Assembly (NCBI RefSeq): GCF_000221045.1
Contig: NC_015856.1
Span: 496,001 to 560,000 of the forward strand
Length of the DNA stretch: 64,000 nt
Direction of reading: 5' to 3'
Source of the DNA: Collimonas fungivorans Ter331
GTDB lineage: Bacteria > Pseudomonadota > Gammaproteobacteria > Burkholderiales > Burkholderiaceae_D
The notes under the pieces: generated by a model
Databases searched by the model: none
Told to the model about the DNA's origin: nothing
Seen by the model: the letters and a program-made list of their open reading frames with translations, nothing else
Position numbers and translations under genes: made by a program
In this document: one piece after another, positions 45,625-51,093 of the stretch
How the letters are laid out: each line of letters opens with the position of its first letter
How positions within the stretch are numbered: position 1 is the stretch's first letter

Positions 45625-45904
45625 ATTTTTCTTGGCGGCGCAGCTGGACAAGCGATTTCTCCGGCCGCATTTGTCGTAAGATACGAACAATACAATGTTG
45701 TTTTGATACGCTCGCCGGCCGGCAGGGTTTCGGGCCTGGGGAAAAACGGTAGCAAGGAGTTGTTCAACGCTGTTCAACTATCGATAGCCACCAATGAACA
45801 CGACAATCAGCACGATGATAAGCAGGGATTCGGAAGAACCGGGTGATTGGAGTTCGGCCTGCGGCGCGGCAGGTTATCGATCTCGTCCGTTGGCGAGGAA
45901 GGGG
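45625..45904 (+). other. cyaY to MORN-gene intergenic region
   Basis: A 280-base gap. It contains a tandem repeat TGTTCAAC-GC-TGTTCAAC (about 45760-45778, 10-base period) that could be an operator for the accessory genes downstream. An in-frame ATG at 45794 would extend the next gene by 37 residues but has no ribosome binding site. No promoter stands out. Confidence 0.4.
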
Positions 45905-46927
45905 ATGCAAGCCATGCTGCTGGCTTGCGCATTGCTGGCTGCATCGGTGGTTGCGCCAGCCGCGGCAGGAGCCGCCAACGCTCCCGCCGCGGCCGGTGCG
46001 ACCACCCTGCAGGCGAACAGCGGTGCGGCCGAAACGCCCCGGCACTGGGCCGCGGATACCAGCAACGGCTGTAAAGTCTGGAGCCCCGGGGCGCTCAACC
46101 GCGACGTCACGGTGCGCTGGAGCGGGCGTTGCGAGAACGATCTGGCGCAAGGTCCCGGCACCGTGCGCTGGCTCAACAGCAACAAGCAAGTATCGGAGCT
46201 GACCGGCAACATGGAGCAGGGAAAAATGCGCGGCCACACCACGGGCGTGGAAGAACCCGGCAATCGTTTTGACGGCATGTTCATCGACTCGCTGCCGGAA
46301 GGCGAAGGCAGGGTGACTTTCGCCGACGGTTCGGTGTATAGCGGACAATGGCATCGCGGCCACCAGCTGGGCTACGGGATCATGACATTTCCGCCGGCGC
46401 ACCCGCAATACCAGGAGATGCTGAGCGATGGCAAGGGCAGGCGGGCCGAGAACGGCATCTATGTGCTGCGTGGCTGGTGGGAGGGAAAAGATTTCGTCCT
46501 GCCATGCGACAGCGAGGATGAGTGTGAAAAGGCCGTGGTAGCCATGATGAAGCGCGAACAGGCTGCGGCGGCTGCCAAGGCCGGCTTGGCCGCTCCGGCG
46601 CCGGCGGCTGTCCCGGCTGTAGAACCTGCCGTACCTGCAACGCCGGCGCCGGCAGTTCCTACGGTGGAGCCTGCGGCAACACCATCGACCCTGCCTGCCA
46701 TGGAGCCAGCCGCACCGCCGGCAACGCCCGCCACGGAACCTGCGCCAGCAACACCGCCACCCGGCGCGCCTGATATCCAGCCGTTGCCGGCGGCAACCGC
46801 GCCGATACCGGAACCCGCCATGGAGCCGGCGCCGGTCGAGGTACCTGTCCCTGTGCCGGAAACAACAACCCCCGCTACCTCGGATGCCGGATCCGGCGTC
46901 CCGCTCACCATAAACGGATTCAGCTGA
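45905..46927 (+). CDS. Secreted MORN-repeat protein with Pro/Ala-rich tail
   Basis: 340 residues. Signal peptide about 1-25 (MQAMLLACALLAASVVAPAA). MORN-like units follow: GPGTVRWLNS, FDGMFIDSLPEGEGRVTF and YSGQWHRGHQLGYGIMTF, between about residues 70 and 165. From about 215 the protein is a Pro/Ala/Glu-rich low-complexity tail ending in LTINGFS. MORN repeats often bind membranes or scaffold proteins; the function here is unknown. AGGA 5 bases upstream supports 45905 over an ATG at 45794. It ends 2 bases before the next gene, so they are coupled. Confidence 0.75.
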   Translation: MQAMLLACALLAASVVAPAAAGAANAPAAAGATTLQANSGAAETPRHWAADTSNGCKVWSPGALNRDVTVRWSGRCENDLAQGPGTVRWLNSNKQVSELTGNMEQGKMRGHTTGVEEPGNRFDGMFIDSLPEGEGRVTFADGSVYSGQWHRGHQLGYGIMTFPPAHPQYQEMLSDGKGRRAENGIYVLRGWWEGKDFVLPCDSEDECEKAVVAMMKREQAAAAAKAGLAAPAPAAVPAVEPAVPATPAPAVPTVEPAATPSTLPAMEPAAPPATPATEPAPATPPPGAPDIQPLPAATAPIPEPAMEPAPVEVPVPVPETTTPATSDAGSGVPLTINGFS

Positions 46928-46929
46928 TA

Positions 46930-47571
46930 ATGCATGCACCGCCTATTTCTGACACAAGCAAATCCACAGGTTTACCAAGCGCACGCCGGCAGCCATGGCT
47001 GACGCTGATCTGCACCGTTCTTTTAACATCGTCGATGCCAGCCGCACACGGACAAATGAAGTCCGACCTGCCCGGCGCCAAGGCGGCTGCCGCGGGACCG
47101 AAAAACCTGCTGGCGGAAGCGGCGCGCAGCGTCGGCGTCAAGCAGTGCCAGCCAGCCATCACGCGCCTGTCGGCGCTGGCCATCAATGGCACCAGCGCCC
47201 ACGATGTGCTGGTGGACTGGGACCGCGCCCATCCGGACCGCGGACCATTCTTTTCCTTGACCGGGATCGAATACGCCGGCGCATCGGCAGCGGTATCCAT
47301 CACTGCGGTGCCGCAGGAGGGCGGCGCCTGTTCGGTGTCGGCCGAGCGCATTTCGATCGCGCCGTATTCATGCAAGAGCATTGCCGATACCGAATTGAAA
47401 GGCTATAGCGCCACGCCTTTGCTGCCGACTTTCACGGTGTATGTGTCGCCGGCCGAGCCGGGCGGTTCGGTCTCCCTGGTGGATTCGCCGCCGGGCTGCC
47501 TGATCATCCGGCGTTATGTGCAGTACGGCTGGACCGAGCAGACCAAAATGGCGGCGCCGGCGCGCAAATGA
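46930..47571 (+). CDS. Hypothetical exported protein
   Basis: 213 residues, no family recognised. A basic N-terminus and hydrophobic stretch (WLTLICTVLLTSSMPAAHG) look like a signal peptide cleaved near residue 41. Four cysteines in the mature part (KQC, GAC, YSC, PGC) suggest disulfides in the periplasm or outside. It lies 2 bases after the MORN gene and 45 bases before the first DUF2827 gene, so it probably belongs to the same transcription unit. Confidence 0.6.
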   Translation: MHAPPISDTSKSTGLPSARRQPWLTLICTVLLTSSMPAAHGQMKSDLPGAKAAAAGPKNLLAEAARSVGVKQCQPAITRLSALAINGTSAHDVLVDWDRAHPDRGPFFSLTGIEYAGASAAVSITAVPQEGGACSVSAERISIAPYSCKSIADTELKGYSATPLLPTFTVYVSPAEPGGSVSLVDSPPGCLIIRRYVQYGWTEQTKMAAPARK

Positions 47572-47616
47572 CAGACACGAGACAGACACGATACATCCTT
47601 ACTTTGAATCCAAGAC

Positions 47617-48750
47617 ATGAGCACAGGCACTTTGCGTATCGGCATCACCATCGGTTTGCACCAGGAAAACGAATCGCTGTGGAACAACGGCATCAAGCAA
47701 AATGCCGTCTACCTGGCTGAAACGCTGAAACAATGCCCGAGCATAGCTTCGGTGCACCTGGTCAATACTACCGTGGTCGCCATCACCGCGGCGCTGCCAT
47801 GGGACCAGGCGCGCTGGCCGACCGTGACTTTCGAGCAGGCCAAGGACAACCTGGATGTGCTGATCGAACTGGGCGGCCAGATCAGTGCGGACCAGACTGC
47901 TTACCTGAAGACGCAAGGATGCCGCCTGATATCCTATTGTTGCGGATTCGAGTACGTGCACGTGATGCAATCGGTATTGTTCAACCGGCCGATGTGGGGC
48001 TACGACCTGTTCGTCAACCAGCGCTATGATGCGATCTGGATGGTGCCCCAGGTTGCGACCAACAGCCAGTCCTACTTCGAGACCCTGCGCCGGCGGCCGG
48101 CGCAAGTGGTGCCGTTTGTATGGGATCCGATCTTCGTCAACCAGCGCAGCCAAGGTTTTGAACATCACGGCGAATATCGCCCGCGCTCCGGTCCCAAGCG
48201 GCTCACCGTGATGGAGCCGAATAACGATATCGTGAAATTCTGCATGTATCCTGCGTTCATTGCCGAAGAAGCCTATCGGCAGCAGCCGCAAGACGTCGAA
48301 ATCCTGCATGTCACCAATGCCGAGCGCCTAGCGCGCGAGAGCAAGGAATTCATTGCCGTGATGAACCAGCTGGATATCGTGCGCGAACACAAGGCGGTGT
48401 TCCTGGGGCGCTTCGACACGCCGCAGTTCCTGAGCCAGATGACCGATGTAGTGATTTCCCACCAGATCGAGAATGCGCTGAATTATTTTTATTTCGACGT
48501 CTGCTGGCAAGGTTATCCGCTGGTGCATAACGCTTACATGTGCAGCGACCTCGGTTACTACTACGAGGGCAACAATGTGAAAGAAGGCAGCCGCAAGCTG
48601 CTTGAAGTACTGAATTCGCACGACGCCGGCTGGCAGGATTATCTGGCGCGCCAGCGGCAGGTGTTGAGTCATTATCTGCCTGGTTGTCCGCAAGTCACAG
48701 CGGAATATGAGCGCTTATTGGCCACATTATTGCAACAGCCGATTGCATGA
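47617..48750 (+). CDS. DUF2827 family protein, copy 1 (glycosyltransferase-like)
   Basis: 377 residues with no signal peptide, so cytoplasmic. N-terminal LRIGITIG and LWNNGIKQNAVYLAETLKQ, then PFVWDPIF, MEPNNDIVKF and the C-terminal block SHQIENALNYFYFDVCWQGY (281-300) followed by PLVHNA match two paralogues just downstream. The two-domain pattern and an acidic pair spaced E-x8-D (E285, D294) before the GYPLVHN turn recall GT-B glycosyltransferases. This copy is the most divergent of the three. The family has no assigned function that I know of; glycosyl transfer is inference. Confidence 0.75.
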   Translation: MSTGTLRIGITIGLHQENESLWNNGIKQNAVYLAETLKQCPSIASVHLVNTTVVAITAALPWDQARWPTVTFEQAKDNLDVLIELGGQISADQTAYLKTQGCRLISYCCGFEYVHVMQSVLFNRPMWGYDLFVNQRYDAIWMVPQVATNSQSYFETLRRRPAQVVPFVWDPIFVNQRSQGFEHHGEYRPRSGPKRLTVMEPNNDIVKFCMYPAFIAEEAYRQQPQDVEILHVTNAERLARESKEFIAVMNQLDIVREHKAVFLGRFDTPQFLSQMTDVVISHQIENALNYFYFDVCWQGYPLVHNAYMCSDLGYYYEGNNVKEGSRKLLEVLNSHDAGWQDYLARQRQVLSHYLPGCPQVTAEYERLLATLLQQPIA

Positions 48751-48778
48751 ACTAATGATTTTTAATCTCTCCTAATTC

Positions 48779-49924
48779 ATGAAAAAAATCAATGTAGGCA
48801 TCTCTATTTTTCCGGTTCAAGGCGCGCAGCTTTGGTCCAACGGTCTCAATCAGAATCTGGCCTTTCTGGTGTTGCTGCTGCAGCAAAGCCCGCAAGTCGG
48901 CCGCGTGTTTTTGTTGAACGGCGGGGCGCTTGACCATATGCCTGACGCGATGGGCCTGAACGGGTTAGATGTGCCTTTGGTAAAACCCCAGGATGTCACC
49001 TTCGAACTTGATGTTGTGATCGAAATGGGCGCGCAGTTGCCTCTGGAGTGGTTGCGTCATGTACGCGCGCTGGGTGTCAAGATCATCACTTTTTTTGTCG
49101 GTCATACCTTTGCTGACAATGCCGAAGCACCGATGTTCGATCGCCCCAGCGGCCAAATTTTCAATGGGACACCGTGGCATGAGATATGGACGCTGCCGCA
49201 ATTCATGAAAAGCAGCGGACCATTGTTGCGCACCGTATCGCGGGTGCCGGTGTTTGCCATACCGCACATCTGGTCGCCATTGTTTATCCAAGAACATGTT
49301 GAGGTAGTTGAAAGAGGCGGCCATCAATTCGGTTATCAGGCCAGGACTGGCATCGACCGGCCTGGTTGGCGCACGGCGATTTTCGAACCGAACATATCTG
49401 TCGGCAAAAACTGCTTTATCCCGATGCTGGTATGCGAGCAGGCTTATCGCCTGGATCAGCGGTCGGTGAGCATGATGATGGTTATGAACACGGTGCATAT
49501 GAAAGAGCATCCAACCTTTAACCGTTTCGCTATCAATCTCGATCTGACCAAACACCATAAGGCCAGCTATGAGCCGCGCGTGGCGTTTGTCGAATGCATG
49601 GCGCAGCAGAAGATGGATGCCGTGGTCTCGCATCATTGGGAATGGGGCTTGAATTATCTGTATTACGACACGCTCTACGGGGGCTATCCGCTGATACATA
49701 ATTCGGAATATCTGAAAGCTGGTGGTGTAGGCATTTATTATCCGGATTTCGAAGCCAGCGCAGGCGGACACGCCTTGCTAGACGCCTGGAACCAGGAACC
49801 GGAATTCTGGGACGACTATAAAAAAGCGGGGACCGCTTACCTGAGCAAGCTCGATCCGGTACGCCCCGAAAATGTGGAAGCATTTGTGAAAAGACTTCAG
49901 CACACCGTGGAAGGTCAGGTATGA
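48779..49924 (+). CDS. DUF2827 family protein, copy 2 (glycosyltransferase-like)
   Basis: 381 residues, cytoplasmic, same architecture as its neighbours: LWSNGLNQNLAFLVLLLQQS, IPHIWSPLF, FEPNISVGKN, HMKEHPTF and SHHWEWGLNYLYYDTLYGGY (284-303) with the E288-x8-D297 pair. Closer to copy 3 than to copy 1. The coding sequence is visibly richer in A/T than the genes on both sides, and the start has no good Shine-Dalgarno, which may mean a different history. The 3' end overlaps copy 3 by 4 bases (ATGA). Confidence 0.75.
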   Translation: MKKINVGISIFPVQGAQLWSNGLNQNLAFLVLLLQQSPQVGRVFLLNGGALDHMPDAMGLNGLDVPLVKPQDVTFELDVVIEMGAQLPLEWLRHVRALGVKIITFFVGHTFADNAEAPMFDRPSGQIFNGTPWHEIWTLPQFMKSSGPLLRTVSRVPVFAIPHIWSPLFIQEHVEVVERGGHQFGYQARTGIDRPGWRTAIFEPNISVGKNCFIPMLVCEQAYRLDQRSVSMMMVMNTVHMKEHPTFNRFAINLDLTKHHKASYEPRVAFVECMAQQKMDAVVSHHWEWGLNYLYYDTLYGGYPLIHNSEYLKAGGVGIYYPDFEASAGGHALLDAWNQEPEFWDDYKKAGTAYLSKLDPVRPENVEAFVKRLQHTVEGQV

Positions 49925-51057
49925 GCCATCCTCTGCCCCAACGCAAGCTGCGCGTCGGCGTCACCCTGTATGTGCGTCCCGGACCGCAATCGATATGGGA
50001 AAACGGCATCTTCCAGAACTGCGCATTCCTGGTGCAGTTGTTCAACCAGTCGCCTGCAGTCGAACGCGCGGTGCTGGTGCTGGACGGCCAGACCGACCAG
50101 GTGAACGACGCCATGATGATGGGCGACCTGGGGATAGACATGATCGGCCTGGAGCAGGCCATGGAAACTCTGGACGTGGTGATTGAAATGAGCGCCCAGC
50201 TGAATGAAGACTGGGTCAGGAGATTCCGCGAGCGCGGCGGGCGTTATGCCTGGATGCGGGTGGGCAACGACTATGTGATCGATGTTGAACGGGCGATATT
50301 CGACAAACCACATGGCGGGCTATGCAGCGACAAGCCTTACGATGCGGTGTGGACCTTGCCGGAGTACCTGCGCAGCTGCAAGGATTATTTCGGGCTGACG
50401 GCGCGGGCGCCGGTGCACATCGTGCCGCACCTGTGGACGCCGCTGTTCTTTGCCAAGGGCATCGCCACCTTGCCCAGCCATCTCAGCTACGGCTACCAGC
50501 CGGGCAAGCCGCGCTGGCGGGTGTGCAGCTTCGAACCCAACGTCTGCATGGTGAAAACCTCGCTGTTGCCGATGCTGGCATGCGAAGAGGCTTATCGGGC
50601 GCAGCCGGAGTTCCTGGAGCACCTCAGCGTCTGCAATACCTTGCACCTGAAAGAGCACCTGAAGTTTTCGCAGTTTGCGCGCTCGCTGGATGTGGTGAAC
50701 CATGGCCTGGCGTCTTTTGAAGGACGCTTCGCGGTGTATGAGTTCATGGCCAATTACGGCGACTGCATCATTTCGCATCACTGGGAAAACGGCCAGAATT
50801 ACCTGTACTACGAAGCTTTGTACGGCGCTTATCCGCTGATCCACAACTCGGAATTCATCAAGGACTACGGCTACTACTATCCGGAGTTCGATTCTTTCGC
50901 CGGCGGCCAGGCGGTATTGCAGGCGTTTGCCACGCATGATGCGCAACTGGAGGATTACCGGCGCCATGCCCAGACCTTGCTGCGCACGCTGGATGTGAGC
51001 CTGCCGGAGAATATCGAGATTTATACCCGGCGCCTGCTGGATCTGTATTCGAATTAA
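49921..51057 (+). CDS. DUF2827 family protein, copy 3 (glycosyltransferase-like)
   Basis: 378 residues. SIWENGIFQNCAFLVQLFNQS, VPHLWTPLF, FEPNVCMVKT, HLKEHLKF and SHHWENGQNYLYYEALYGAY (285-304) with E289-x8-E298 repeat the family pattern. GC-rich with normal codon use for the window. Last gene of the run; a bidirectional terminator follows and mrcA converges on it. Substrate and role are unknown; a surface glycan such as LPS or exopolysaccharide decoration is the best guess. Confidence 0.75.
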   Translation: MSHPLPQRKLRVGVTLYVRPGPQSIWENGIFQNCAFLVQLFNQSPAVERAVLVLDGQTDQVNDAMMMGDLGIDMIGLEQAMETLDVVIEMSAQLNEDWVRRFRERGGRYAWMRVGNDYVIDVERAIFDKPHGGLCSDKPYDAVWTLPEYLRSCKDYFGLTARAPVHIVPHLWTPLFFAKGIATLPSHLSYGYQPGKPRWRVCSFEPNVCMVKTSLLPMLACEEAYRAQPEFLEHLSVCNTLHLKEHLKFSQFARSLDVVNHGLASFEGRFAVYEFMANYGDCIISHHWENGQNYLYYEALYGAYPLIHNSEFIKDYGYYYPEFDSFAGGQAVLQAFATHDAQLEDYRRHAQTLLRTLDVSLPENIEIYTRRLLDLYSN

Positions 51058-51058
51058 A

Positions 51059-51093
51059 AAAGGCTTCCCTGATCGGTTCAGGGAAGCCTTTTT
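51059..51093. terminator. Bidirectional terminator between DUF2827 copy 3 and mrcA
   Basis: A 14-bp stem (51059-51072 with 51078-51091) around TCGGT, with A-run before and T-run after, serves both converging genes. Confidence 0.92.

Follow-up and report, generated by a model that had tools for sequence, protein, structure and literature searches.

A 64,000-nucleotide stretch of the Collimonas fungivorans Ter331 genome (NC_015856.1, positions 496,001 to 560,000; hereafter the window) carries, within positions 45905-51057, five open reading frames (ORFs) on one strand (+), the last three of which encode proteins of the DUF2827 family that we propose to be glycosyltransferases of adhesins. The one-direction run described in the initial annotation, with gaps of 2, 45 and 28 bases followed by a 4-base overlap, agrees with the ORF coordinates, and the Pfam searches returned the families it had named, with a single MORN match (cut-off 22.5 bits) in the first protein and DUF2827 matches covering 362/362 positions in each of the last three (cut-off 25 bits). 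The features of the locus are the following:

45794..46927, + strand, MORN-repeat gene (Pfam MORN, 31.4 bits)
46930..47571, + strand, P0002, no Pfam family, a Collimonas-specific companion of the array
47617..48750, + strand, DUF2827 subfamily A, putative glycosyltransferase (PF10933, 523 bits)
48779..49924, + strand, DUF2827 subfamily B, putative glycosyltransferase, constant companion of C (PF10933, 519.1 bits)
49921..51057, + strand, DUF2827 subfamily C (P0005), putative glycosyltransferase, modelled as GT-B (PF10933, 552.1 bits)
51057..51093, no strand (.), intrinsic-terminator hairpin (-27.1 kcal/mol, z -6.19)

At E <= 0.1, DUF2827 was the sole Pfam family matched by the three array proteins and NCBIfam gave zero matches, and their genes are the sole DUF2827 matches in the 5.19 Mb of the Ter331 genome (E <= 0.001). 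The initial annotation regarded them as a triplication, which is wrong in time. In a tree of 151 DUF2827 sequences, where Burkholderia was thinned and some genomes are present twice, A, B and C belong to separate clades of 38, 51 and 53 sequences (support 1.0, 0.989 and 0.873, respectively), which rules out a recent tandem event; the identity of the other two proteins to C is 40 and 31%. As judged from this phylogeny, they are three old subfamilies, and the three related transfer steps suggested in the same annotation fit them. The gene arrangement was followed in the best 80 of 384 confirmed relatives from a scan of genome contigs, ranked by similarity to DUF2827-C (6 from Collimonas and 74 others). 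The presence of C in all 80 loci follows from that ranking, and in 79 of them the DUF2827 gene that comes after B is C, in some cases beyond intervening ORFs; A is also present in 59 and a further class, D, in 26. Because of these frequencies, the arrangement suggests a B-C core to which A and D would add further steps. All three genes are under purifying selection, with ratios of non-synonymous to synonymous substitution (dN/dS), measured against the genome G164, of 0.076 for A, 0.042 for B and 0.015 for C. The family was detected in 13/195 genomes of the window's family, 7/399 of its order (6 above the cut-off) and 5/398 of its phylum, the last two being overlapping draws that both include the window's genome, and is rare across order and phylum.

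In a first look at other genera, DUF2827 genes were mostly found behind giant Ser/Thr-rich genes, several of them with 'SLST' repeats or with a start that we take to be ESPR-like. One upstream same-strand ORF was examined with Pfam in 59 of the 74 non-Collimonas loci, through its last 150 residues or fewer when short or cut; candidates were selected for a high Ser/Thr content or a match to an earlier profile, and their list was edited by removing L189 and L218, including L174 and L213, and taking other stretches for L152, L191, L195 and L210. At E <= 0.01, YadA_anchor was matched by 58 of the 59 and YadA_stalk by 57, the one without anchor being L148, judging from its RTX-type upstream protein and the genome-wide absence of anchors. 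A trimeric autotransporter adhesin (TAA) hence lies upstream of DUF2827, on the same strand and within 4 kb, in 58/74 non-Collimonas loci; the distance was measured in 55 cases and does not exceed 300 bases in 28 of them. Simple arithmetic from the 81 YadA anchors in the ~99.5 Mb of 19 DUF2827 genomes gives a chance expectation of ~0.2% for an anchor in a 5-kb same-strand window. Moreover, the genomes G304, G466 and G955 (Ramlibacter) keep a single YadA anchor each, which is the one beside DUF2827.

A similar association was observed when whole genomes were compared. With a Glaciimonas SLST-repeat sequence as the query, a single sample of 195 genomes from the window's family gave repeat matches in 13 genomes, 12 of which are also among the 13 with DUF2827 (Fisher p 4e-17, uncorrected for kinship); the two mismatches correspond to G083, with a 40-position DUF2827 fragment, and G158, with a weak repeat match (E 8.6e-4). 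YadA anchors were found in 20 of the 195 genomes, eight of them without DUF2827, including G054, which belongs to the same genus as the DUF2827-bearing Glaciimonas soli (G014). None of 10 stalks from these eight genomes reached 2 repeat motifs per 100 residues versus 13 of 19 from DUF2827 genomes, in a comparison of the best fetched loci rather than of all TAAs, and with the short locus L108 left out. Among the 80 genomes of a second set, the query matched 4/7 with DUF2827 (G466 weakly) and 1/73 without it (G237, weakly).

The Ter331 array has no such neighbour, and its likely partner, from the sequences read, is the TAA family encoded elsewhere in the genome, where 7 YadA anchors are found and 5 of the 6 Ser/Thr-rich stretches read contain 42-58% Ser+Thr. 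In this regard, the Collimonas genome G061, which has no DUF2827, keeps what seems to be a deletion scar (L235:7119-8541, G061:C66). After its MORN gene, the apparent first bases of P0002 run directly into the final bases of DUF2827-C, with a match of 91% over 35 bases to positions 51025-51059 of the window, and this junction makes it probable that the G061 lineage lost P0002 together with all three DUF2827 genes by deletion. Profile and repeat-query searches of the same genome found no YadA anchor and no SLST-repeat match. Adjacency in 58/74 loci, shared presence in 12/13 genomes and joint absence in G061 are altogether the pattern expected of a dedicated autotransporter glycosylation system. 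Nothing corresponding to the array was found at this site in G054, G014 or Noviherbaspirillum galbum (G058). The 1.7-Mb genome G083, placed in the genus of the window, shows only a DUF2827 fragment close to the end of a contig (C131:2886-3011) and a MORN remnant (C47:578-916), possibly the outcome of genome reduction or of a cut contig.

A search of P0005 (DUF2827-C) against PDB sequences gave 0 matches at E <= 10, and its fold was approached through an AlphaFold2 (AF2) model obtained from 18 sequences (pLDDT 88.4, pTM 0.87), C being the protein covered by both the model and the Foldseek search. The latter returned 127 matches at E <= 0.001, with GT-B enzymes first among the best 50 of 127, such as BshA (5d01, E 3.2e-9), MshA (4.6e-9) and VldE, followed later by GlgM, whereas the pneumococcal O-GlcNAc transferase GtfA (4pqg) ranked 13, at 9% identity over the structural alignment. 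These matches support a predicted GT-B glycosyltransferase fold for C, and the glycosyltransferase-like reading of the initial annotation, which had called for a check against GT-B folds, was supported through this one of the three proteins. Retaining GT4 enzymes carry an E-x7-E motif. In DUF2827, where 30 alignment columns are at least 97% identical across the 151 sequences, a putative motif with an acid pair at another spacing was located in 146 of the 151; all 146 keep the acid at position 298 (C numbering), as D in 51/51 B and E in 53/53 C, and the first acid of the pair is kept in 51/53 C. No signal peptide is visible by inspection of the three array proteins.

Because of the predicted GT-B fold, the lack of a visible signal peptide and the tie to Ser/Thr-repeat adhesins by position, presence and joint absence, it is quite probable that the three DUF2827 proteins are dedicated TAA O-glycosyltransferases. 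According to this proposal, the enzymes would place O-linked sugars on the Ser/Thr-rich SLST stalks of TAAs (type Vc secretion) and probably elongate them, a modification that would take place in the cytoplasm ahead of Sec export. The core would consist of B and C working jointly, perhaps in a complex, with A contributing a further step, and the Collimonas set, unlinked from its acceptors, would serve several TAA genes at other sites of the genome. The gene identities, the location behind TAAs in other genera, the co-occurrence, the joint absence in G061, the predicted fold of C and the purifying selection were observed directly, whereas catalysis, donor sugar, Ser/Thr linkage, cytoplasmic site, B-C complex and acceptor residue are inferred.

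Several observations weigh against this proposal. A confirmed upstream same-strand TAA was missing in 16 of the 74 loci: five are truncated within 2.3 kb (L153, L156, L183, L187 and L199), three show a candidate TAA on the other strand (L151 and L207 by an in-house profile, L190 by eye), L189 and L218 hold weak candidates left out of the Pfam scan, and L146, L147 and L154 are Hydromonas-type glycosylation islands, in genomes with 3-6 anchors outside the fetched stretch. The remaining loci (L148, L149, also cut off, and L155) are Verrucomicrobia/Spartobacteria bins with B-C pairs, and because no YadA anchor was found in the two genomes searched, those of L148 and L155, TAAs cannot be the sole acceptor of DUF2827. 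Many of the 80 loci come from close Burkholderia relatives, and Collimonas accounts for 10 of the 12 genomes where DUF2827 and the repeats co-occur, hence the independent events are few. With respect to the repeats, the motif is absent from 6 of the 19 stalks of DUF2827-bearing genomes, and the query, which scored at most 16 candidates per genome in the 195-genome set and 40 in the second set, missed three genomes with DUF2827, namely G304 and G911, where the repeats are of a different kind, and G496, which has a DUF2827 fragment below the cut-off and one anchor that is not near it. As for the structure, most of the top Foldseek matches have modest TM-scores (0.55-0.62), and a modelled GT-B fold, common and widely matching as these folds are, does not tell acceptor or sugar. 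Moreover, the first acid of the pair is lost in 20/51 B, and the spacing is x8 versus the x7 of GT4 enzymes.

Part of these observations could be explained if DUF2827 built a general surface glycan, such as a capsule, an exopolysaccharide or a lipopolysaccharide decoration, and TAAs were its neighbours since both are surface genes of variable regions. The company of other glycosyltransferases and methyltransferases in L146, L147 and L154, and around the lone class-D gene of L069, would be natural for such a pathway, and so would the Verrucomicrobia B-C pairs, two of them in searched genomes without YadA anchor. Nevertheless, a TAA is located upstream in 58/74 loci, within 300 bases in 28/55, and the joint pattern of DUF2827 and SLST persists where both are unlinked, as in Collimonas, while genomes with TAA stalks devoid of SLST repeats (10 sampled) are also devoid of DUF2827, which makes this explanation an unlikely one. 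Pseudo-glycosyltransferases are, on the other hand, known as partners in serine-rich-repeat systems, as is the case of GtfB. DUF2827 proteins could similarly be non-enzymatic, glycosyltransferase-like chaperones or adaptors keeping the long repetitive TAA stalk competent for export, an idea compatible with the loss of the first acid in 20/51 B and with the presence of VldE, a pseudo-glycosyltransferase, among the top folds. The conservation of C, with its first acid in 51/53 and its second in 53/53 sequences and a dN/dS of 0.015, and the abundance of possible acceptor residues in the repeats (S+T up to 0.58) render it very improbable for the whole set, although it may apply to B alone.

DUF2827 genes were also observed in other genetic settings. 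A fourth gene occurs elsewhere in three Collimonas genomes (L067:9918-11042, L068:9760-10884 and L069:9928-11052), and the L069 copy, of class D, adjoins a family 2 glycosyltransferase-like gene (identified by eye) and a gene with a methyltransferase domain. In L146, L147 and L154, all three subfamilies are present and are surrounded by an island of genes for glycosyltransferases and methyltransferases (as tested with Pfam in L147), and in L148 a Ser/Thr-rich RTX-repeat protein is encoded directly upstream of the DUF2827 pair. Three Burkholderia plasmids (L246, L247 and L248; two typed as conjugative and one as mobilizable) carry DUF2827 genes as well, in pairs or triples behind an annotated YadA-like gene, from which OmpA, TPR or H-NS genes separate them; in one plasmid, the giant gene upstream of DUF2827 is annotated as hypothetical only.

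Regarding the first two genes of the run, both proteins appear to be exported by inspection of their N-termini. The MORN frame opens at 45794, upstream of 45905, and because relatives conserve that N-terminus (MNT..RDSEEP..), the former is probably the real start; the protein ends in a Pro/Ala-rich tail. G061 keeps the MORN gene at the same site without DUF2827, and in the genome G028 the array is kept but no MORN gene was found next to it, which ruled this gene out as a partner of the system; because of these two genomes it is no necessary part, and is probably a neighbour or passenger. P0002, for which the Pfam search found no family and the AF2 model was uninformative (pLDDT 34.4), accompanies the array in 10/10 Collimonas genomes carrying it and evolves with a dN/dS of 0.18 (against G164). 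It was not found in G061 or G014, and G177 has one weak match with 2 stops, so that, among the genomes compared, P0002 follows the array within Collimonas only. Of the two exported partners put forward in the initial annotation, P0002 then stands for the Collimonas arrays and falls in Glaciimonas, whereas the MORN protein falls with G061 and G028. That both would be exported and would accept or tailor the glycan in a five-gene pathway is the least probable explanation, for all the tight packing of the genes and the loss of P0002 together with the array in G061, given the behaviour of the MORN gene and the fact that no relative of either gene was found in G014, where the same three DUF2827 genes lie downstream of a TAA.

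The terminator predicted at the end of the run corresponds to a stable hairpin of 16 pairs located 3' of DUF2827-C, and no shuffled sequence was equally stable (0/200), though the consensus terminator scan did not list it. It sits between convergent genes, DUF2827-C and what we take to be a penicillin-binding protein 1A-like gene, with an A-rich flank on one side and a T-rich flank on the other, and is probably bidirectional. Promoter-like sites in the consensus scan were near background (4 vs 2.6 expected). At its other end the array is presumably bordered by the cyaY/lysA side.

In the PMC literature, subscription papers and preprints being outside the scope, DUF2827 was met in a single paper, in a table entry that pairs it with 'Uronic acid pathway', without tested function; no mention of PF10933 was found, nor any title or abstract linking DUF2827 to autotransporters. 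On the acceptor side, SLST repeats of Burkholderia have been described (PMC2955633), and the SLST-repeat adhesins of Burkholderia cenocepacia are suspected to be O-glycosylated in a paper whose text does not include the word glycosyltransferase (PMC7142374). A DUF family present in many Burkholderiales would gain a testable function and a named acceptor. Moreover, genes with an autotransporter-adhesin annotation, which the source does not call trimeric, show some of the strongest induction in Collimonas pratensis on biotite, up to log2 8.75 or ~430-fold (PMC12542777), and because of this induction sugar-coated adhesins may matter for the hold of soil bacteria on minerals.

Two cytoplasmic glycosylation mechanisms, NGT and BAHT, are named for type V secretion in a 2021 review (PMC8151025), and the one proposed here would, if true, represent a third bacterial way of decorating autotransporters. 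According to the same text, the BAHT heptosyltransferases (Aah and TibC; AIDA-I, TibA and Ag43) share with our proposal a cytoplasmic location, a gene found beside or away from the autotransporter, and the modification of many Ser/Thr sites before export (PMC8151025). BAHT enzymes, which form iron-dependent multimeric rings and use ADP-heptose, have, however, been described for the beta-helix passengers of classical autotransporters, whereas DUF2827 goes with the SLST stalks of trimeric ones in a set formed by B and C plus A; by sequence, the three proteins fall outside BAHT, as they match DUF2827 alone in Pfam and no family in NCBIfam (E <= 0.1). The HMW1C-like NGT enzymes also glycosylate secreted adhesins in the cytoplasm, including some trimeric autotransporters (PMC8151025). 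They modify Asn in NX(S/T), whereas the SLST repeats are Ser/Thr repeats, and Pfam and NCBIfam found no match to the NGT family in the three DUF2827 proteins.

A further parallel may be found in Gram-positive bacteria, where GtfA-GtfB is a GT-B pair encoded, together with further transferases, beside a long serine-rich adhesin. Both systems would combine a GT-B pair, extension enzymes and a Ser-rich adhesin, and the structural match of C to GtfA points to a common fold but not to kinship. Serine-rich-repeat adhesins leave the cell by accessory Sec export, in contrast with the trimeric autotransporter export of TAAs. As a tentative, if plausible, extension, B and C might be the two subunits, both of them obligatory, of one protein O-glycosyltransferase, further sugars coming from A and D, in a third autotransporter glycosylation system acting on hundreds of SLST sites of trimeric adhesin stalks. 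Such a system would be found mostly in Burkholderiales, reaching other Proteobacteria and travelling also on conjugative plasmids, would act on other Ser/Thr-rich surface proteins in Verrucomicrobia, and could represent a Gram-negative counterpart of serine-rich-repeat adhesin glycosylation.

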